Below, in pieces: positions 5,490 through 19,230 of a stretch of 21,434 nt of DNA. Made by a program: the position numbers and the translations under genes. Where the stretch lies: positions 1 through 21,434 of IMG/VR virus record IMGVR_UViG_3300047170_000088; one strand, given 5' to 3'. The notes below the pieces were generated by a model. It was given only the letters and a program-made list of their open reading frames with translations, was not told where the DNA came from and searched no databases. The number at the start of each line of letters is the position of its first letter. Positions within the stretch are counted from its first letter, which is position 1. Origin of the DNA: a virus.

Positions 5490-6070
5490 GTCTCATCCCC
5501 ATCTTTCTCGGGCTCGCCGGGGCCCCCGGCAACGGGTCCATGTTGCTGGGGTGGCTCGCCGGGGCCCCCGGCAACGGGTCCATGTTGCTGGGGTGGCTCG
5601 CCGGGGCCCCCGGCAACGGGTCCATGTTGCTGGGGTGGCTCGGGCGCGCCCAGGTTGTAGGCCTCGATAATGGCGGTTACGGCTGGGAGCAGGTAGGGCT
5701 GGGTGAGCAGCGCGAGCGCGTCTTCCCAGGCGATCTCGGGCTGGAACTTGCGCAGCGACGCGGCGAAGAGCACGCGCGTGTTCTTGAGCGTCAGCCTGCC
5801 CCAGCCGGGCAGGGCAAACAGCAGGTTGACATCGTGGCCGTTGGGCCGGCCGGGGGTGGGCGCGTTCAGCTCTTCTTCGGCCTGGGCCAGCGCGCCCAGG
5901 TCGAAGCACAGCCGGTACTCCCGGCCTTCGATGGTGATCGCGCTCGTGGGCAGGGTGGGGTCCCCGCGGACAGGTCCACGTCCGTGGGGTACTAGCGTGG
6001 GGTCCCCGCGGACAGGTCCACGTCCGTGGGGTACTAGCGTGGGGTCCGGTGCGGCTTTGGTCTTCGTCAT
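5465..6070 (-). CDS. Tail assembly chaperone G
   Basis: The core of this 201-residue product (residues about 42-155) contains ITIEGREYRLCFDLGALAQA, then LLFALPGWGRLTL and WEDALALLTQPY, the pattern of the gpG-like tail assembly chaperones (TAC family) encoded after the tail tube gene. The core is flanked by repeats absent from usual family members: two copies of a 14-residue unit DPTLVPHGRGPVRG near the N-terminus and three of EPPQQHGPVAGGPG near the C-terminus. Both are encoded by 42-nt palindrome-bearing repeats. The start lies 1 nt after the tail tube stop with a poor Shine-Dalgarno, so coupling is likely. A -1 slip near codon 195 would give the G-T fusion. Confidence 0.8.
   Translation of the reverse strand: MTKTKAAPDPTLVPHGRGPVRGDPTLVPHGRGPVRGDPTLPTSAITIEGREYRLCFDLGALAQAEEELNAPTPGRPNGHDVNLLFALPGWGRLTLKNTRVLFAASLRKFQPEIAWEDALALLTQPYLLPAVTAIIEAYNLGAPEPPQQHGPVAGGPGEPPQQHGPVAGGPGEPPQQHGPVAGGPGEPEKDGDETNPTEPGA
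5511..5636. repeat. Three tandem 42-bp REP-like palindromic units (in frame in G)
   Basis: Three identical 42-bp units start at 5511, 5553 and 5595. Each holds a 10-bp stem with one G:T mismatch, CCCCGGCAAC and GTTGCTGGGG, around an 8-nt loop GGGTCCAT. The period is exactly 14 codons, so the reading frame of G is preserved. Confidence 0.95.
5955..6047. repeat. Two tandem 42-bp REP-like units plus a 9-bp partial unit (in frame in G)
   Basis: Identical units start at 5955 and 5997, and the first 9 bp recur at 6039. Each unit has arms CCCCGCGGAC and GTCCGTGGGG (one G:T mismatch) and loop AGGTCCAC. Architecture (10-8-10) and loop (RGGTCCAY) match the repeats at 5511-5636, so both belong to one family although their arm sequences differ. 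Confidence 0.95.
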
Positions 6071-7290: not shown

Positions 7291-7739
7291 CAGCTCTGAT
7301 TGCCCGGCTCATCGTCGCGCAGCGGGGCGTCTACGCGGGTGCCGAACGGGCGCAGGCGGCCGCGCGACCTGCTCAGGAAGCCCGCTTGCTCGATGCTGTG
7401 ACTGTTTTCCGTGGCCAGGCGCAGCGCCTCGGTGGCCAGGCGCAGTGCCTCGGTCTGCCGCGACCCAGCCTGCGCCTGCTGGTCGGTAACCCTCCGGTTC
7501 AATTCCGTGACCCTCGTCTTGACCTGGACAGTCTCGTCTTTGGTCTGGTTGGCTATGGTGGTGAGATTGCTGACGTTCTTTGCGGCGAGCGTGGCGGTCT
7601 GGGCCCGGTCCTGGCGATCCCACTCGCGCTGCTTGGCCATCCGCGCCTCGCTCAGAAAATAGGTCACGCAGGGGCCCACGATCGACGCGAAAACCAGCGT
7701 GATCAGCGAGCCGATCAACGTCCATTCGGACTGGGTCAT
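7290..7739 (-). CDS. Membrane-anchored coiled-coil protein of unknown function
   Basis: The 149-residue product has one N-terminal transmembrane segment (about residues 7-29, LIGSLITLVFASIVGPCVTY). A charged coiled-coil stretch (about 35-110) follows, then a polar C-terminus. Within the coiled coil, TEALRLA is repeated twice, encoded by a 21-bp direct repeat at 7411-7452. I do not recognise a family. The architecture would suit a spanin-like, holin-like or superinfection-related membrane protein, but the gene sits between head-closure and tail-completion genes, an unusual place for lysis functions. It follows a 14-codon mini-ORF made from a REP-like repeat and may be translationally coupled through it. 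Confidence 0.65.
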   Translation of the reverse strand: MTQSEWTLIGSLITLVFASIVGPCVTYFLSEARMAKQREWDRQDRAQTATLAAKNVSNLTTIANQTKDETVQVKTRVTELNRRVTDQQAQAGSRQTEALRLATEALRLATENSHSIEQAGFLSRSRGRLRPFGTRVDAPLRDDEPGNQS

Positions 7740-7740
7740 C

Positions 7741-7775
7741 GGGGTCCCCGGCTACGGGTCCATGTTGCTGGGGTG
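7741..7775. repeat. Single REP-like palindromic unit at a gene junction
   Basis: Arms CCCCGGCTAC (7746-7755) and GTTGCTGGGG (7764-7773) enclose the loop GGGTCCAT. This is the same family as the tandem units at 5511-5636, with a mutated left arm. On the minus strand a 14-codon mini-ORF (7736-7780) reads through it. Its start overlaps the head-closure stop (ATGA) and its stop overlaps the start of the next gene (ATGA). Confidence 0.85.
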
Positions 7776-7776
7776 A

Positions 7777-8412
7777 TCATGAAACGCCATCCAGCACAAC
7801 GCAGTAGAGGTCGAGCTGCACGTTGCGCTGCTCGACGTTGTCGACATAGAGAATCCTGAAGATCGTTCCACCCGCGGCGCCGAGCCGGACCTGCCACTGG
7901 GGCAGCACGCCGGCCTGGTAGCGCATGGTGATGCGATGGGTGGCCTCGGCGACAAACGTGTCGCCGCCATACTGCTCCTTGCCGGAGACGAAGACTACCT
8001 CCGCCCAGGTGGTGGCGCCATCGAGCAGCGGCAGCGGGCTGCCGGTTGCGTCGAAAGCCGCCCGGCCGAGCATGGCGATCGCGCCGGTGACCGTGGTCAG
8101 GGCCGGGTCGGCCGCAGTTCCGTTTCCGCTTGCGTCGACTGCGAGCACGCTCGTGACCAGCGCGGCCGAGGGCGGAATGACGACGGGCGCCGGTGGTACG
8201 GGCGGGATTACTGGCGGCGCGGGCGGCGCGGGAAAGGGTACCGCGATCGCCGCGCCCGCGCCTGGCACGATGAGCGGCAGGCCCACATCCGTGGGCAGGA
8301 AGGCGGAGCCCGCAATCGCCGCCGAGCCCGCCGTCATGCTGACCGGGATGAGCTGGCCCTGCACCAGGAAGGTGCACTGGTGGCGCAGGCGTCCCGCCGC
8401 TAACGTCTGCAT
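7777..8412 (-). CDS. Head-closure (head-tail joining) protein with Pro/Ala-rich insertion
   Basis: The N-terminus (MQTLAAGRLRHQCTFLVQ) and the C-terminal part (THRITMRYQAGVLPQWQVR, then IFRILYVDNVEQRNVQLDLY) are the two halves of the phage head-tail joining family (SPP1 gp16/HK97 gp9 type, about 110 residues). They are separated here by an insertion of roughly 100 residues that includes a low-complexity Pro/Ala/Val stretch (APPAPPVIPPVPPAPVVIPP) and a beta-rich segment. Total length is 211 residues. The start overlaps the stop of the connector gene. The insertion may form an external decoration loop on the neck; this is inference. Confidence 0.78.
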   Translation of the reverse strand: MQTLAAGRLRHQCTFLVQGQLIPVSMTAGSAAIAGSAFLPTDVGLPLIVPGAGAAIAVPFPAPPAPPVIPPVPPAPVVIPPSAALVTSVLAVDASGNGTAADPALTTVTGAIAMLGRAAFDATGSPLPLLDGATTWAEVVFVSGKEQYGGDTFVAEATHRITMRYQAGVLPQWQVRLGAAGGTIFRILYVDNVEQRNVQLDLYCVVLDGVS

Positions 8413-9448: not shown

Positions 9449-9478
9449 AAATGTTTCGGGTTTGTCCGCGAAACATTT
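9449..9478 (-). other. Perfect hairpin at the capsid gene stop codon
   Basis: A 10-bp perfect inverted repeat, AAATGTTTCG and CGAAACATTT, with a 10-nt loop overlaps the last bases of the capsid stop codon. No T-run follows on the minus strand, so it looks more like an mRNA-stabilising or processing hairpin after the most abundant structural gene than a terminator. Confidence 0.6.
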
Positions 9479-10667
9479 ATGAATGCTGGGTGAGGGTGAT
9501 GATTGCGGCGGGGATGAGCAGCTTGCCGTCGGTGCGCTCCCACACGCGGAAGCCGATCTGGCCGTTGCCGGCGTAAAGCTCGTTGAGCCGCTGCATGCTC
9601 CAGCCGATGCGGTCGACGATCTGGTAGTAGCTGAAGTCGCCGAACGCGGCCGAGACGGTGGTGGCCGCGACCTCCGGCAGGAAGTTGGACGTGTAGACGG
9701 GCCTGCCGAGCAGCGTGTCCGGCGCGCCCGCAATGAGGCTCATCTGCCAGATGTACTGGCCGGTGGTCGCCTTTTCCATGCGCACGGTCTTGATGGCCGA
9801 GTCCGCGAAGACGAAGCTCGCGTTGCGACGATAGGGCCGGGTGAGGCCGTAGTACATCGCGAAGACATCGAGCGTGCCGACGTTGGCGGGAGCGATCGAG
9901 GTGACGGTCGAGCCCGAGGCCAGCACCGTGGTCAAAAAGCCGGTGGGCTTTTTGTTGCCGTCGCCGCCGATGTAGGCCGCTTCTTCCGCGAAGCTCGCGG
10001 AAAGCGCCGCGCGCCCCGAGATGTAGTCGCCGATGTCCAGGAAGGCATCGTCCATCAGCTCTTCCGAGACCGTCATGATGCCGCCCAGCTTGTACGCCGA
10101 GAGGATGCTCTGGCCGAACGAGGCGTCCGTCGCCGGATAGGTGCCCAGCTCATCGATCCAGCCGAAGGTAGGCAGGTTGCCTTCCATCGGGATGTTCACC
10201 TGCGATGTGGTGCGGATGACCGTGCCCAGCTGTCGCATGATGTTGGCATCGCGCAGCTGCAGGACGATCTTGGTTTCAAAGTCGATCGGCACCACGTAGC
10301 CGCCGGCAGTGTTGACCGACTTCTCGAGCGTGGCCTTGATCTCCATGGGCGTCGCGCCGTCGCCGTGCCGGGCCCAGGCGATGAAGTTCTTTTTGTACTC
10401 CGCGGTGGCGCGGGGCTGGACCGGTTCGTCGGTGTCGAGCGAGCCCCTGATGCCGGTGCCGGTATGCGCGTTGTCCTTCTCCGCGGCATCGAGCTTGACC
10501 TGGCGGTCGACCTGGGCCTTGATGAGGTTGGCGTCGGCCTCCATCTTGTCATAGCTGGTCTTCTCCTCGGCGGTGAAGTCGCGCTTTTCGGCGAGGACCT
10601 TGTCGTTGAGAGCGCGCTGCTGGGCAATGATCGTTCCGCGCTCGGTCAGTTTTTCATTCACGTTCAT
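9477..10667 (-). CDS. Major capsid protein, HK97 fold
   Basis: This 396-residue protein has an N-terminal charged helical region (residues about 1-75, with KRDFTAEEKTSYDKMEADAN) corresponding to the cleavable delta/scaffold domain. From about residue 85 the HK97-type coat domain begins: KKNFIAWARHGDG, then TLEKSVNTAGGYVVPIDFET, VNIPMEGNLPTFGWIDELG, LSASFAEEAAYIGGDGNKKP and LLGRPVYTSNFLPEV. These elements and their order are typical of HK97-family major capsid proteins. A protease gene lies just upstream, consistent with maturation cleavage. A Rho-independent terminator and an alternative hairpin lie in its leader. Confidence 0.95.
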   Translation of the reverse strand: MNVNEKLTERGTIIAQQRALNDKVLAEKRDFTAEEKTSYDKMEADANLIKAQVDRQVKLDAAEKDNAHTGTGIRGSLDTDEPVQPRATAEYKKNFIAWARHGDGATPMEIKATLEKSVNTAGGYVVPIDFETKIVLQLRDANIMRQLGTVIRTTSQVNIPMEGNLPTFGWIDELGTYPATDASFGQSILSAYKLGGIMTVSEELMDDAFLDIGDYISGRAALSASFAEEAAYIGGDGNKKPTGFLTTVLASGSTVTSIAPANVGTLDVFAMYYGLTRPYRRNASFVFADSAIKTVRMEKATTGQYIWQMSLIAGAPDTLLGRPVYTSNFLPEVAATTVSAAFGDFSYYQIVDRIGWSMQRLNELYAGNGQIGFRVWERTDGKLLIPAAIITLTQHS

Positions 10668-10756: not shown

Positions 10757-11611
10757 CTACAGTTCGGCGAGGCGGAGATTTTCGGCGCGGAAGCGGGCAG
10801 AAAGCATGGCAATTCGCTCGTTTTCCGCCGATTTCAGGGCGCTTGCGGCTGTTTCTGCCAGCTTTGCGCTTATATTTTCAGGGCAATCGCAGCCCTCGCA
10901 GTCGCAGTCGACGTGGTCGCAACTCTCGCAATTACCCTGCACACAGGGGTCGCACGAGCAGGTGCAGTCGTCGCTGGCCGCTTTCGGCGCATGCTTGAAC
11001 TTGCTGAGGTCGAACTTTGCCTTTGCGGCCGCGCTGGTCGCCTTGCTTGACACAGCGGTCACCGAGTCAGCCCAGCCTGCCGCGACCGCCTCGGGGCCCG
11101 TGTACCAAGTCTCCGCATTCATGATCGCCAGCAGATCGTCAGCGCTCTTGCCGGTGCGCGCATAGGCAGGCAGCATCATGCCGGCGCGGGTCTGGTCGAG
11201 CAGGTCGGCCATCTTGCGCATGTCGGTCGAGTCCCCGATCGCCAGCGCCCAGGGATTGTGAACCATCATCATCGCCGTGTCCGCGATGGAGATCGTGTCG
11301 CCGGCCATCGCGATCACCGTCGCGATGCTCGCGGCCAGGCCGTCGATCTGGACGCTGATCTTCGCGGTGTGCTGCTTGAGGGCGTTGTAAATCGCGATGC
11401 CCTCGAAGACATCGCCGCCGGGCGAGTTGATCCGCACCGTGATCGTGTCCACGTCGCCCAGGCCGGCGAGCTGCTGCACGAACTCCTTCGCGCCCAGACC
11501 GCCGAACCATCCCTCGCCGATCTCGTCGTAGATCAGGATCTCGGCCGACTTCTCCGCGGCGGACAATTTCGTCATCCGCACGACGCCGGGCTTCTTGCTG
11601 AAAATGCGCAT
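10757..11611 (-). CDS. ClpP-like prohead maturation protease with Cys-rich insertion
   Basis: The 284-residue protein shows the ClpP/S49-type fold: ITVRINSPGGDVFEGIAIYN near residues 57-76, the nucleophile Ser95 in GLAASIATVIAMAG, and His118 in AMMMVHNPW. It would cleave the capsid delta domain and scaffold during head maturation. Residues 216-243 form a cluster of ten cysteines (CTCSCDPC, then CESCDHVDCDCEGCDC), probably metal-binding. A helical C-terminus follows, which may act as scaffold. The start at 11611 is supported by AGAAAGG overlapping the stop of the upstream gene. It lies between portal and capsid genes as in HK97-like phages. Confidence 0.92.
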   Translation of the reverse strand: MRIFSKKPGVVRMTKLSAAEKSAEILIYDEIGEGWFGGLGAKEFVQQLAGLGDVDTITVRINSPGGDVFEGIAIYNALKQHTAKISVQIDGLAASIATVIAMAGDTISIADTAMMMVHNPWALAIGDSTDMRKMADLLDQTRAGMMLPAYARTGKSADDLLAIMNAETWYTGPEAVAAGWADSVTAVSSKATSAAAKAKFDLSKFKHAPKAASDDCTCSCDPCVQGNCESCDHVDCDCEGCDCPENISAKLAETAASALKSAENERIAMLSARFRAENLRLAEL

Positions 11612-12202: not shown

Positions 12203-13453
12203 TTATCCTTTTTGTGGATCGGGAATCGGTTCGTTCGGCTTGGTCGCGCCGGCGGTGGTGTTGGGATTCTCGAATTTGTCGCCGCCCTCGCGCGGATTGA
12301 GGAACTCCTTTGCGCGCGCCTCGTTCGGACTGAACCATGTGTTCGCAATGCCGGAGGCGTAGTAGTTCGCTCGCGCCTGCATGTCGCCGCGCTGCAGCGA
12401 GTCCACATCGAAGCGCGCGAAGTATTTCTTCCGCTCGTTCGGCAGCAGCAGGTCGCGATTGATGCTCTCTTCGAACTTCTTCAGCCACGGCATCAGGCTC
12501 GAATTCACGAAGTCCATCGACAGGTGCTCGATGTTATTGAAGGTCGCGCGCGCCAGGTCCTGGATCTTGTGAGGCGGCACCCGGTAGATGCGGCAGATTT
12601 CTTCGAGCTGGTACTTGCGCGCCTCGATGAATTGCGAATCGACCGATGTCATGGCCAGCTTCGCGACCTTCATTCCCTCCTCGAGGATGATGGTCTTAAA
12701 GGCGTTATGTGAGCCGGCATACTTGCTGTGAATCGACTCCTGAAAGCGCTTTTGCGCCTCGGGCGACATTACGCCGGGATGCTCGAACGCAGTCGCGATC
12801 TGGGCGCCGTTCGAGAACAGCTTCGCGCCGTGCTCCTCGGTAGCCATCGAGAGCCCGATCGACTCCCGCGCGTAGGAAATCGGACTCAGTCCGTTAAGTC
12901 CGTTGAAGCTCATCCCGGTGATGCGCCAGACCTCGTCGTCGCCGAGCGTGACCTTGCCACCGTTGGGCGGCGTGTAGTCGTAGGCCAGCCGGCCATTCGC
13001 GCCGCGGTACATGCGCACATAATCCGGATGCAGCGAATTGATCTCTGTAACCTGGCCGCCGGAGCGCACAATCTGGTGGTACGCGTTGCCGCGCAGGCAC
13101 AGGTGCAGCATGGCCATCTCGCGCATGTCCTGCGAACTGACTTCCGGGTTCGGCAGGTGGCGCAGCAGCGGGTAAAGCGGGTGGTCGAGCGCGGGCTCGG
13201 TCGAGCCGTCCCGGCCGTACTTGTAAAAGATCAGCGGCAGCTGCCCCACCGATTGCGAGAGTACCGCAACGCAGGCATAGACCGCCGCGACGCGCATCGA
13301 GGTCTGCGGCGTGACCACTTTGCCGGCCGCCGAGGGCGACATCTGGAAGGCCTCGCCGATCCAGGGCGCGGGGTTGGCCAGCGTCGATTCGCCCGGAGCG
13401 AGCGCATGCACAATGGCGCGCCAGGCGTCCGCGATGGTGGTCTGCAGGCTCAA
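12203..13453 (-). CDS. Portal protein, HK97 family
   Basis: The 416-residue protein contains the portal hallmarks in order: VVTPQTSMRVAAVYACVAVL near residue 50, LPLIFYKYGRDG, DHPLYPLLRHLPNPEVSS, MAMLHLCLRGNAYHQIVRSG, then GLSPISYARESIGLS, ICRIYRVPPHKIQDL and FNNIEHLSMDFVNSSLMPWL. These match the HK97-type portal (phage_portal family), the dodecameric ring through which DNA is packaged. Its start overlaps the terL stop codon. Length is normal for the family. Confidence 0.95.
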   Translation of the reverse strand: MSLQTTIADAWRAIVHALAPGESTLANPAPWIGEAFQMSPSAAGKVVTPQTSMRVAAVYACVAVLSQSVGQLPLIFYKYGRDGSTEPALDHPLYPLLRHLPNPEVSSQDMREMAMLHLCLRGNAYHQIVRSGGQVTEINSLHPDYVRMYRGANGRLAYDYTPPNGGKVTLGDDEVWRITGMSFNGLNGLSPISYARESIGLSMATEEHGAKLFSNGAQIATAFEHPGVMSPEAQKRFQESIHSKYAGSHNAFKTIILEEGMKVAKLAMTSVDSQFIEARKYQLEEICRIYRVPPHKIQDLARATFNNIEHLSMDFVNSSLMPWLKKFEESINRDLLLPNERKKYFARFDVDSLQRGDMQARANYYASGIANTWFSPNEARAKEFLNPREGGDKFENPNTTAGATKPNEPIPDPQKG

Positions 13454-15186
13454 TAGACTAAGGCTCCTCGCGTCTCGTAAATCGAACTCTTTGCCACGCC
13501 GACCAGCATGGCCCGGTAGAGCGCCATGCAGATAGCCACCATGCCGTCGATTTTTTCTCGCGACTTGGCCTTGTCCAGCTTGATGTTGCCGGCCGGATCA
13601 ATGCTCGCCATCGCGTTCGAGGCCATCCAGCGCAGCACCGGGTTGCCCCCGTGCGCCAGCTGCTCGTTCAGAACCAGCTCCATCAGCCGCTTGGTCGGAG
13701 CATTCATCGAGGCGTAGCCCTGGCCGCACTCAACCATTGTGAAGCCGTCGTCTTCCAAATCCCGCACGATGTCGCTAGAATTCCAGCGGTCGAAACATAT
13801 TTCTTTGATCTTGAAATCGCGGGACAGGGTATTGATCCTCTCGCGGATGAAGCCGTAGTTGATAATCCGTCCCTCGGTCAGCTCGAAGAGCCCCTGGCGG
13901 TTCCAGATGTCGTAGGGCACACGGTCCCGTTTGACCCGCTCCTCGATGCTCTCGGCGGGCAGAAAAAAGCTGGGCAGCACCGACCAGTGCAGGTCGCTGC
14001 CGCGCGGCGGAAAGAGCAGTACGAAGGCGCTGATATCGGTCGTCGTCGAGAGGTCGAGGCCCCCGAAACAGGGCCGGCCGCGCAGTTGCTCAGCGTCGAC
14101 CACCGCCTGGCAGCCATCCCAGATGTGCAGCGGCATCCAGGCGGTGTGCGAATGGGTCCACCGCGAGAGCCGGAAGCGCAGAAAGCTGTTCAGCGCGCTG
14201 GGATCGTTGCGGGCTTTCGCGGCCTGCTGGCGCATGTCGTCGAGCGAGACCACGGTGCCCAGCGCCGGGTTGGCCTTGATCCAGGTGCGCTCATCCTCCC
14301 AATCATCCCCCTCGTCGATGCCGGAAATCCAGGCGAACCAGGTGTCATCGTCGAATACCCGGTCGAGCACCTTGATCGAATACTCGCGCTGCTGCCAGCA
14401 GACCGAGTGGCGGTCCCAGCCGGAATTGGTGATGGCAAAGAGCAGCGGGTTGCGCCGCTTGCCCATCGCCGAAACAAACACATCCCACACCCCGGAGGTG
14501 GCATGCACGTGCAGCTCGTCGAGACAGATGAACGACGGCTTGAGGCCGAGCAGGTTCGTGTCTTCCGACGCGCACGGCTCGAACTTCGAGGCGGTCCCGG
14601 GGATGTGCATGTTCTCCCGGAAGGTGGTGATTCGAGCCCGGAGCAGGGGCGAGCGCGAGACCATCAGGGCGGCCAAGTCCCAGACGACCTTCGCGGTCTT
14701 TTTGTCCGTCGCCGCGCTGTAGACCTGGGCGCCTGCCTCCCCGTACCCGATCAGCTCATAGATGCACAGGCCGCTGGCCAGCGCCGACTTACCGTTGCCC
14801 CGGCCGATCTCGTTGTAAGCGAACTTGAAGCGGCGGTACCCCGTGCCCGCGCGCTTCCAGCCGTACAACATCCAGAGCTGCGCCTGCTGCCAGGGGAGCA
14901 GGAGAAACGGCTGCCCGTCGTACTCGCCCTCGCAGTGGCAGAGAAACTCCTTGAAGAACTTGAAGAGCCGCCGGGGCTCGGCCGGGTCGAAGTACAGCCC
15001 GCGCTTGTGGCCATCCTTGAGGTCGCGGGCGTGCCGCTCGATCTGCTTCCGGACGAACGACGACGTGAGCTGGCGGCCGGAGAGCACGTCTTCGATGAAG
15101 CGCTCCGGGATGGAGAGCCGCCGCGGCCTGGTCGCGGCCCGCGCCGCAGTGCGATCCGCCTGCCCGGTCCTCGCCAGTGTCGCCAT
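13450..15186 (-). CDS. terL: Terminase large subunit
   Basis: This 578-residue packaging motor has an N-terminal ATPase with a Walker A-like GRGNGKS at about 128-134, Walker B ICLDELH at about 220-226, and a coupling motif near AITNSGW (251-257). A C-terminal nuclease domain follows, whose first acidic motif is GGLDLSTTTD with Asp378 and Asp384. This is the HK97/phage YmfN-like terminase group, usually associated with cohesive ends. The gene starts 3 nt after the terS stop and overlaps the portal start. Length is normal and no defect is seen. Confidence 0.96.
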   Translation of the reverse strand: MATLARTGQADRTAARAATRPRRLSIPERFIEDVLSGRQLTSSFVRKQIERHARDLKDGHKRGLYFDPAEPRRLFKFFKEFLCHCEGEYDGQPFLLLPWQQAQLWMLYGWKRAGTGYRRFKFAYNEIGRGNGKSALASGLCIYELIGYGEAGAQVYSAATDKKTAKVVWDLAALMVSRSPLLRARITTFRENMHIPGTASKFEPCASEDTNLLGLKPSFICLDELHVHATSGVWDVFVSAMGKRRNPLLFAITNSGWDRHSVCWQQREYSIKVLDRVFDDDTWFAWISGIDEGDDWEDERTWIKANPALGTVVSLDDMRQQAAKARNDPSALNSFLRFRLSRWTHSHTAWMPLHIWDGCQAVVDAEQLRGRPCFGGLDLSTTTDISAFVLLFPPRGSDLHWSVLPSFFLPAESIEERVKRDRVPYDIWNRQGLFELTEGRIINYGFIRERINTLSRDFKIKEICFDRWNSSDIVRDLEDDGFTMVECGQGYASMNAPTKRLMELVLNEQLAHGGNPVLRWMASNAMASIDPAGNIKLDKAKSREKIDGMVAICMALYRAMLVGVAKSSIYETRGALVY

Positions 15187-15189
15187 CGC

Positions 15190-15609
15190 TCATCCTGTTT
15201 TTTTCGCGCGCTGCATGAACTTCTCGAAGGCATCCTTCGGCTGCTCGGAAGGTTTATTCATCTGGGCGCGCGACTCGTCGGTGATCCTCTTCAACTTCTC
15301 GTCCAGCTGCACCTGGTACTTGATCACGCTCAGCTTGCAGCCAACCCGCTCGGCCTCGACCGTGATATCGCAGAGTCGTTCGAGCGTGTTGCGATCGGCG
15401 ACGGTCAGGGTGCGGCCGGCCTCGGCAATCTTCTCGAACCAGATCTCGAGCTTGCGGGTTCCGGTGCTCGATGGATTGAGAAAGCGGGCCGGTGGATCGC
15501 CCAGTGGTCCGAGCAACGGCGCTTCCACTCGGTTCTGGCGCCGGGCTGGATTCTTCTTGAAGGCTCCCGTCATTTCGAGTACAGCGGTTGGTTTGCGAGG
15601 TCTTGCCAT
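15190..15609 (-). CDS. terS: Terminase small subunit
   Basis: The 139-residue product begins MARPRKPTAVLEMTGAFKKN, the N-terminal signature of the P27-like small terminase family, followed by helical segments (LTVADRNTLERLCDITVEAE) and a Lys-rich C-terminus. It recognises the packaging start and recruits the large subunit. ATG 15609 was chosen because the family signature starts there and AGGGG lies about 5 nt upstream; the frame stays open further upstream without family similarity. Helically phased ACGCGT motifs lie 43-92 bp before the start, a plausible binding site. Confidence 0.9.
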   Translation of the reverse strand: MARPRKPTAVLEMTGAFKKNPARRQNRVEAPLLGPLGDPPARFLNPSSTGTRKLEIWFEKIAEAGRTLTVADRNTLERLCDITVEAERVGCKLSVIKYQVQLDEKLKRITDESRAQMNKPSEQPKDAFEKFMQRAKKTG

Positions 15610-15651
15610 GGTTGCCCCTACGCGCTTCGCGCCATGTTTTTGATCAGGCCG

Positions 15652-15701
15652 ACGCGTAGCGCGAAATGAAGCCACGCGTGGCTAACGCGTCGAGAACGCG
15701 T
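15652..15701. repeat. Four helically phased ACGCGT motifs upstream of terS
   Basis: The palindrome ACGCGT occurs at 15652, 15674, 15685 and 15696, i.e. spaced 22, 11 and 11 bp, so all copies face the same side of the helix. I found only one other copy in the window (13081). The array sits 43-92 bp before terS and about 190 bp from the CRISPR array. A terminase (pac/cosB-like) or regulator binding site is the natural guess. Confidence 0.55.
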
Positions 15702-15888
15702 GCAAAGTCGCAGGTGTCGTGAGGCAAGATGGCTATCTTGAGTTCTCGCGGACGCCACTTGAACCTGCCAGCCCGGTCGCGTAAGAGAGGGCAAGGGTAA
15801 GAAACCGCAGTAGGAATTCAGGCTCGCATTCGGGTTCGCGAAATAGGCCACGAAACCTGCTGAAAAGACATCCGTTACGATGATGGCA
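15702..15888. other. Non-coding leader segment before the CRISPR repeats
   Basis: No convincing gene is present in this 187-bp stretch. From repeat orientation it is the leader side of the CRISPR array, which would be transcribed on the plus strand. No promoter better than a poor TTGAAC-N17-TAAGAG (from 15769) was found, so expression of the array is uncertain. Confidence 0.4.
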
Positions 15889-16125
15889 GTCGCGCCCCGC
15901 AAGGGGCGCGTGGATTGAAACTGAACTAAGCGCAAGGAAGGCCAGGCGCGGCACGAGGTCGCGCCCCGCAAGGGGCGCGTGGATTGAAACACCAACGCGC
16001 CGGGATTCGCCCCGAAGACGACCAGGTCGCGCCCCGCAAGGGGCGCGTGGATTGAAACACTCTGTAGTTGGGCAATTGAACAGTATCTGTTCGTCGCGCC
16101 CCGCAAGGGGCGCGTGGATTGAAAC
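15889..16125 (+). CRISPR. Four-repeat CRISPR mini-array, type I-C-like, without cas genes
   Basis: Four identical 33-bp repeats lie at 15889-15921, 15958-15990, 16026-16058 and 16093-16125, separated by unrelated spacers of 36, 35 and 34 bp. Each repeat begins GTCGCGCCCC, forms an 8-bp stem (CGCGCCCC with GGGGCGCG) capped by the GNRA-type loop GCAA, and ends GTGGATTGAAAC. That end and the stem are those of type I-C repeats, and they set the transcription direction to plus. The last repeat is not degenerate. No cas gene occurs in the window. Phage genes lie on both sides (terS to the left, HNH endonuclease to the right). I saw no copy of any spacer elsewhere in the window. Confidence 0.97.
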
Positions 16126-16291
16126 AGTCCATGATTTGTGCCCTATGTGCCACTGCTCGCGGTTAGTAGAGCCTCTGGCGGCACGTTTGACCGCGCTGAC
16201 TTTTCGCGCGCAAACCCGAAAAAATCATTAGTTTTGTGGATATATAAACGACCCTAAGCGTCGGTCTTCGCGGCCGAGGGTCTGGAGAATT
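16126..16291. other. Intergenic segment between CRISPR array and HNH gene
   Basis: This 166-bp stretch has no gene. It contains an AT-rich part (16220-16248, including TATATAAAC) that might hold the minus-strand promoter of the packaging operon, though no -35 partner is convincing. An inverted repeat (GACCCT at 16250-16255 with AGGGTC at 16277-16282) lies next to it and lacks a T-run. Confidence 0.35.
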
Positions 16292-16687
16292 TCACCCGCC
16301 CCCGGTCCTCGCCGCCATCTCCTTCATTCCACGCGGCTTATGTCCTAAGCCTCCATCCTCCAGCACCGTCTTGCGGTCATGGCAGGCCTTGCACAAACCT
16401 TGGCGGTTCTCAGGCGCGCGGAACAACTCAAGATCGCCCTTGTGCGGCACGATGTGATCCACCACCGTCGCCAGTTCCAGCCGCTCGCCGTGCGCGCCAT
16501 ACGGATCGACACAGAACGGATGGCTGCGGAGGTACCACAACCGCTGCACTTGCCAGGTGCGGCCATATCCGCGAACAGCCGCGCTTGGCCTGGTCTCCTT
16601 GCCCGCGCCTTTGGCCTTGCAGCCATCGCAGTAGCCGCTCACCACCAACGACGCGCAACCCACCCGCGCGCACGGCCGCTTGGCCAT
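16292..16687 (-). CDS. HNH endonuclease
   Basis: The 131-residue protein has the HNH core VVDHIVPHKGD (Asp77-His78), NRQGLCKACHDRK (Asn94, His103) and two pairs of structural cysteines (C20/C23 region and C99/C102), plus an N-terminal CxxxxC zinc element. HNH proteins encoded next to terminase genes are required for packaging-related DNA cleavage in HK97-like cos phages (HK97 gp74 is the model). The gene here is separated from terS by the CRISPR array and ACGCGT motifs rather than abutting it. The start ATG overlaps the end of the upstream gene region closely (1 nt gap), implying co-transcription with it. Confidence 0.93.
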   Translation of the reverse strand: MAKRPCARVGCASLVVSGYCDGCKAKGAGKETRPSAAVRGYGRTWQVQRLWYLRSHPFCVDPYGAHGERLELATVVDHIVPHKGDLELFRAPENRQGLCKACHDRKTVLEDGGLGHKPRGMKEMAARTGGG

Positions 16688-18282: not shown

Positions 18283-19230
18283 TCACATCCCCACCCTGCA
18301 GTTTTTCCAATTCGCTAATTTCACCGCATCGACCGGCCAGCTGTTCTGCCTCTCCCAGTGCCCCTGGCCGAAGAACTTGCGCGGACCCCAGGTAAAGCGC
18401 AGCAGATCGCCCCACTCGCCATAGTTCTCCCAGGCCGCGATCATGGCCTCGGCGGTAGCCTGCACCCGGTCCGGCGGCGAGCGGCCCAGCACCCCGCGCA
18501 GCACTGGAGCCAGCCGCGGATCGACAAAGCCGCACCTCCGCATGACCAGGCCCACGGTCTGCGAGATTGGATTGCATGGCAAGTCTGGATCGCCCTGCGC
18601 CGTTGCCTCGTCCTGCGTACTTGCCTCGTCTTGCGTACTTGAATCTTCAACACATCCCCCCTCGCTTTTTGAGGGGGGTAGGGGGGTGTTTGTACTTGTA
18701 GTCTCTGAAGTACTCTCTGAATCATGAATTTCACCAAAGGGTAAATTCAGTTCTTCACCTTTGTGTAAAAACGGAATTTCACCTTTCGTCAATTTCCGTT
18801 TTTCACCTTTGTGTAAAAACGGGAGACCGTCGAGAGCCTTCACCAGGGCCTCGAAACGAACAGAAAGATGCTTCATAGGCTTGCCCTGGAAGCGGGCGAC
18901 GCGCGTCTCCACCAGTCCCAGTTGCTCCAGCATTTCGATTGCGCGGTCGAACTGCCTGGGCGTGATGCGGCACTCCTCCCACCAGTCCACTCGGCCTTTG
19001 ACCAGCCAGCGCCGCCCGTATTTTTCGACCATCAGTTTGCTCTCGCCGTGTCTGGACGGCAGGAACCAATAGACGATCTGGCTCAACAGCAGCCCCGCGA
19101 TCAGGTCGCCCGCAATATCCACGTAGCAGCGCTTCACGTCGAGCGTGTCCCGCGAGCGCGCCTCCCAGTGCAGAAAGTCGAGCTCGATCTTCGCGGCCAT
19201 CTCGACCGTCATCATTTCTTCTATATGCAT
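18283..19230 (-). CDS. Phage replication initiator (winged helix, O-like organisation)
   Basis: The 315-residue protein has an N-terminal domain with LIAGLLLSQIVYWFLPSRHG, then WLVKGRVDWWEECRITPRQF and MLEQLGLVETRVARFQGKP, a winged-helix pattern common to prophage replication proteins. Its central linker (about 136-168) is encoded by four 24-bp tandem iterons, giving 8-residue units such as PFLHKGEE. An acidic Ser/Thr-rich linker with the repeat STQDEA follows. A C-terminal domain (GDLLRFTWGPRKFFGQGHW) resembles those that contact replisome partners. ATG 19230 was chosen; in-frame ATGs at residues 6-7 are alternatives. Domain function is inferred from architecture. Confidence 0.78.
   Translation of the reverse strand: MHIEEMMTVEMAAKIELDFLHWEARSRDTLDVKRCYVDIAGDLIAGLLLSQIVYWFLPSRHGESKLMVEKYGRRWLVKGRVDWWEECRITPRQFDRAIEMLEQLGLVETRVARFQGKPMKHLSVRFEALVKALDGLPFLHKGEKRKLTKGEIPFLHKGEELNLPFGEIHDSESTSETTSTNTPLPPSKSEGGCVEDSSTQDEASTQDEATAQGDPDLPCNPISQTVGLVMRRCGFVDPRLAPVLRGVLGRSPPDRVQATAEAMIAAWENYGEWGDLLRFTWGPRKFFGQGHWERQNSWPVDAVKLANWKNCRVGM
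18603..18638. repeat. Two 18-bp tandem repeats in the initiator gene
   Basis: Two 18-bp copies (each starting TTGCCTCGTC, one mismatch) lie at 18603-18620 and 18621-18638. They encode the STQDEA repeats of the initiator's acidic linker. Confidence 0.85.
18656..18678. repeat. G/C-tract hairpin in the initiator gene
   Basis: CCCCCCTC (18656-18663) and GAGGGGGG (18671-18678) form a perfect 8-bp stem with a 7-nt loop. A second G6 tract follows at 18681-18686. It lies 51 bp from the iterons. Confidence 0.8.
18730..18825. repeat. Four 24-bp iterons inside the initiator gene: putative replication origin
   Basis: Units start at 18730, 18754, 18778 and 18802, all beginning TTCACC on the plus strand. 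Units two and four share 21 identical bases including CCTTTGTGTAAAAACGG; units one and three are diverged. The block is markedly AT-richer than the surrounding gene. Four iterons in the linker of an initiator gene is the layout of the lambda ori within gene O, hence the origin call. Confidence 0.6.

Follow-up and report, generated by a model that had tools for sequence, protein, structure and literature searches.

The window analysed here, the whole 21,434-bp IMG/VR virus record IMGVR_UViG_3300047170_000088, is a contig of an HK97-like phage and carries a cas-less, apparently leaderless type I-C CRISPR mini-array in the intergenic region between its HNH endonuclease and terS genes. We consider it most likely, with a probability of about 0.5, that this array supplies guides to a type I-C system of the host for use against competing phages.

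A type I-C array among phage packaging genes

The array occupies positions 15889-16125 on the plus strand (237 bp) and consists of four identical copies of the 33-bp repeat GTCGCGCCCCGCAAGGGGCGCGTGGATTGAAAC, separated by three spacers of 36, 35 and 34 nt. The repeats, located as exact 33-mers, lie at 15889-15921, 15958-15990, 16026-16058 and 16093-16125, with spacers 1, 2 and 3 at 15922-15957, 15991-16025 and 16059-16092, respectively. This agrees with the preliminary description of the region, which had reported four perfect repeats and three spacers between terS and the HNH gene. No copies of the repeat are expected by chance, even when up to three mismatches are allowed. A CRISPR array is recognised by at least three near-identical repeats with unique, evenly sized spacers, all of which are seen here, and four repeats within 237 bp distinguish the locus from a solitary repeat unit, defined as a single repeat outside any array. 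We conclude that the phage carries a true I-C array that lacks cas genes.

The repeat folds into an 8-bp stem closed by a GCAA loop (-18.9 kcal/mol, z -3.9) and has the GTGGATTGAAAC end of the type I-C repeat class. Among approximately 85,000 species genomes, the exact repeat was found in one, a Thermoguttaceae metagenome-assembled genome (MAG) that contains two array fragments with this repeat and, on a different contig, cas5c, cas8c (Csd1) and cas7c. As this MAG shares the repeat exactly and carries cas5c-cas8c-cas7c, the I-C label is sound, and together with the hairpin fold this confirms the type assignment made earlier. The exact repeat was absent from every other viral contig searched. 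Thermoguttaceae are not supported as the host of the phage, since the family has distant TerL matches only (at most 43%), and our attempts at host assignment found no host for the HK97-like phage. The search of candidate hosts proposed in the preliminary description was thus successful in finding the exact repeat in a genome with I-C cas genes, but did not establish a host with the same repeat.

None of cas3, cas5c, cas8c and cas7c was found beside the array, where the neighbouring proteins are phage proteins, and PADLOC gave no defence match for the ten unassigned proteins of the contig, so the array is cas-less, as had been proposed. The same contig encodes HNH, terS, terL, portal, protease and capsid, and the array is in this respect a typical virus-borne mini-array: a viral genome with no cas genes. 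The gene order is that usual for HK97-like phages. The HNH endonuclease gene (16292-16687; Pfam PF01844, PHROG 144/2323), terS for the terminase small subunit (15190-15609; PHROG 83) and terL for the large subunit (13450-15186; Pfam PF20441 and PF03354, TerL_ATPase and TerL_nuclease) all lie on the minus strand with intact frames, followed by the leftward-reading portal (12203-13453), ClpP-like protease (10757-11611) and capsid (9477-10667) genes, with connector and tail genes after the capsid. The closest TerL relative (60%) likewise has HNH and then terS upstream of terL. The array therefore has phage genes on both sides and runs antisense to the late operon; both points had been claimed previously and both stand. 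The late genes also hold 42-bp tandem repeats at 5511-5651, 5952-6047 and 7733-7777, which encode repeated peptides and have a related copy elsewhere.

The 279-bp left flank can be ruled out as a CRISPR leader. At the expected leader site, positions 15647-15778 on the minus strand contain the remnant of a phage replication-initiation gene (approximately codons 36-78; PHROG 16167, E 6.5e-14) that ends in a stop and shows 75% DNA identity to a Shinella prophage-like region; identity at the protein level is 74%. A different replication gene, that of the phage itself, lies at 18283-19230. Given this foreign fragment, the terS-array gap is evidently a place of foreign DNA uptake, and the putative packaging signal previously placed beside the array is at least partly this gene fragment. 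No leader with a promoter was recognised on the 5' side of the array, and a search for promoters of the sigma-70-like type found none within 15500-16400. The 166-bp right flank between the array and the HNH gene (16126-16291) has no plus-strand terminator and no nucleotide match among the collected loci, and no relative of it was found. A shared array was not found in relatives of the phage: there was none in 80 terL relatives, many of whose contigs are short upstream of terL, and no I-C repeat lay near intact replication genes, where a single 12-nt partial match was seen (in L234).

Guide, decoy or passenger

The preliminary description had proposed searching the three spacers against phage, plasmid and metagenome sequences; our searches of viral contigs, phages and plasmids found no target for any of them. 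The 17-nt 5' seed of spacer 1 had no match in viral contigs, and those of spacers 2 and 3 gave seed-length matches only, with at most 24 matching positions (of 35 and 34, respectively). BLAST of all three spacers against phages and plasmids returned nothing significant, and an ungapped scan of the collected loci and the window gave a best score of 24, compared with 22-24 for shuffled spacers. Nor did these searches show a spacer match to a related virus, the nearest relative being at only 60% in TerL.

Insight into what such an array may do comes from a relaxed search, which recovered at least 119 viral contig stretches with I-C type repeats. Among these are two related T7-like phages with 80-88% DNA identity, G003 (L116/L309; IMG/VR 3300032004_000065) and G004 (L186/L312; 3300031901_000009). 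Each carries a cas-less I-C array of four repeats and three spacers, at L309 5939-6171 in G003 and at about L312 3116-3350 in G004, in the same late intergenic site between head and tail genes and in antisense orientation. Spacer 1 is common to both in homologous form while spacers 2 and 3 differ, indicating spacer turnover. Spacer 3 of G003 matches G004 at 31 of 35 positions, with the first, PAM-proximal 24 nt perfect, approximately 0.25 kb from the G004 array, whereas the equivalent site in G003 itself matches at only 25/35. For spacer 3 of G004 the equivalent site, about 0.4 kb away, matches at 27/34 in both phages. The 3-nt motif beside the G003 spacer 3 match in G004 is CTT rather than TTC. 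Viral mini-arrays have been reported to show such a pattern, with targets in relatives that lie near the array (PMC6858448). The two phages resemble the HK97-like phage in having a cas-less I-C array of four repeats and three spacers, intergenic in the late region and antisense, but belong to another phage family, use another locus (head/tail) and have different repeat stems. They support the same role for the array studied here by analogy only.

We propose a sequence of events in which the array would have been captured from a host array by recombination and would be transcribed rightwards during infection or lysogeny. Host Cas5c would cut its repeats, and the predicted products are plus-strand crRNAs of approximately 65-70 nt with an 11-nt TGGATTGAAAC 5' handle. 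Guided by the three crRNAs, host Cascade/Cas3 could then act on competing phages, which are probably related ones. The repeats may in addition titrate Cas proteins, either as a by-product or, in some hosts, as the chief advantage. The perfect repeats, the I-C spacer lengths, the hairpin, the repeat shared with the MAG, the intact phage setting, the k=127 assembly signature described below, the parallel with G003/G004 and the inter-viral use of such arrays in archaeal viruses support this guide role; the missing spacer target, the missing sigma-70-like promoter, the lack of a known host, the absence of the exact repeat from other viral contigs, the lack of an array in terL relatives and the CTT motif in G004 count against it.

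An alternative is that the array acts mainly as an RNA anti-CRISPR, supplying repeat RNA to occupy host Cas5c/Cas7c and thereby block the I-C system, with the spacers being incidental. In its favour, many viral contigs have solitary I-C repeats, mostly in intergenic positions, a solitary I-C repeat, RacrIC1, has been shown to inhibit type I-C (PMC10651486), and no target was found for the three spacers. Three full-length spacers between four perfect repeats nevertheless exceed what a decoy needs, and in the T7-like phages spacers have turned over and one matches a relative, leaving this explanation rather unlikely in our view. It seems more doubtful still that the array is an unexpressed piece of a host array, captured with foreign DNA in a variable intergenic site and of no benefit to the phage. 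The adjacent replication-gene fragment shows that the gap collects foreign debris, and neither a promoter nor a terminator was found beside the array on its own strand, yet the four repeats have stayed identical, with their spacing undisturbed, and the array lies in an intergenic position.

Solitary I-C repeats and a possible route of capture

Prompted by the array, we also surveyed the viral contigs L084-L212, in which 101 I-C repeats are strictly solitary. The canonical I-C PAM is TTC. In 29 of the 101 a TTC ends exactly 34-36 nt upstream of the repeat, compared with 5.4 expected from other offsets (p=5e-14), while the sequences between TTC and repeat are unrelated to each other. Neither TTC downstream (3) nor GAA upstream (5) of the solitary repeats was enriched, and GAA 34-36 nt downstream occurred 13 times, slightly above its local range of 4-12. 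Approximately two thirds of these repeats are in sequence not covered by ORFs, as against 19% of random positions; this was the case for 19/30 of the TTC class and 55/81 of the remainder. As they are mostly intergenic and some recur in separate contigs, the solitary repeats seem mostly to be real phage features that sit behind a PAM and a stretch of spacer length, and for the same reasons we reject assembly chimerism as a general explanation of viral I-C repeats. The simplest account of the TTC offset is recombination between a host spacer and a phage protospacer that brings the repeat along.

Several further features of the solitary repeats were observed. To their right, AAAC is often found in L084-L212, with AAC at +2 in 16 cases compared with 2.3 expected. 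Direct flank duplications of 34, 33 and 15 bp accompany the repeats at L166 8764, L094 4858 and L143 7018, the last of which separates the terL stop from the portal start. Flank duplication was considered as a general mark of insertion and rejected, being present in only about 3-5 of 115 cases. A degenerate solitary I-C repeat is located between two longer genes at L308 2001-2033, which corresponds to positions 8206-8235 of Akkermansia phage Chantilly, a sequenced isolate; this repeat has no TTC 34 nt upstream.

Based on this survey, we tentatively suggest, as a reading somewhat short of even odds, that phages acquire I-C repeats and mini-arrays from the arrays of their hosts by way of the match between a host spacer and its protospacer in the phage. 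A captured repeat would end an intact PAM-protospacer unit, and the spacers of a captured array would point to sequence beside the array in relatives; the captured elements could then function as RNA anti-CRISPRs or be turned on relatives. The array in the HK97-like phage does not show the TTC signature, the nearest TTC lying 51 nt upstream of repeat 1, and it would represent a multi-repeat product in which the mark of the junction is no longer present or is to be sought on the right-hand side.

It is improbable that the array is an assembly chimera between the phage and a co-sampled host array. Such an origin is conceivable from L091 (12586-12721), where an I-C array interrupts a phage HNH gene immediately behind a TTC and 36 further nt and continues up to the end of the contig, the layout expected from a merged host spacer and phage protospacer, and from the TTC-protospacer-repeat-protospacer loop of L166, both of which could be assembly products of a spacer/protospacer match, but our array has phage sequence on both sides, flanks that are not repeated within it, no TTC 33-37 nt upstream of repeat 1 and a contig with a k=127 assembly signature. 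This signature is an exact 127-bp repeat of bases 1-127 at 1733-1859, within the 3' portion of the tape measure gene, which suggests an assembly end at k=127. With words of this length the 33-bp repeats should not give a false join, which makes misassembly at the repeats less likely, although assemblers also carry over contigs from shorter words.

Relation to known elements and significance

Virus-borne mini-arrays are already known, and the present one adds another. Inter-viral use of such arrays has been documented in archaeal viruses (PMC6858448). The arrays of the Sulfolobales portogloboviruses SPV1/SPV2 are likewise cas-less, intergenic and reliant on host Cas proteins, but have one or two spacers and a leader, and their targets in related viruses are known (PMC6858448), whereas ours has three spacers, no recognised leader, no target found and an I-C repeat, and belongs to a tailed phage. 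Nostoc cyanophage N-1 (Chenard 2016, PMC4916379) is similar in being a tailed phage with a cas-less, host-like array whose spacers lack database matches; its array differs in having five 37-bp repeats of the DR5 type, an AT-rich leader, demonstrated transcription and a location in another genome region. Clostridioides difficile prophage arrays, as far as they are described where cited in PMC4916379, also have host-like repeats and lie in the structural/morphogenesis module, but their spacers match other C. difficile phages and their hosts are of another group. Solitary repeat units and RNA anti-CRISPRs including RacrIC1 share with our array a hairpin-forming I-C repeat in a phage genome without cas genes, but lack its four repeats and three spacers; the published finder for these units classes full repeats that occur in clusters as arrays and discards them (PMC10651486). 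Recombination with host arrays has already been suggested for leaderless phage mini-arrays (Medvedeva 2019, PMC6858448).

With the array described here, the small set of virus-borne arrays gains an HK97-like phage whose packaging genes adjoin a three-spacer I-C array. Together with the T7-like phages, it points to a recurrent class. To our knowledge, the excess of solitary I-C repeats placed one spacer length behind a PAM is new, and this offset is a sign of how such elements enter phage genomes. If capture through a targeting spacer is true, the origin of RNA anti-CRISPRs would become testable, as would the proximity of mini-arrays to their targets, which Medvedeva et al. called 'unclear' (PMC6858448).
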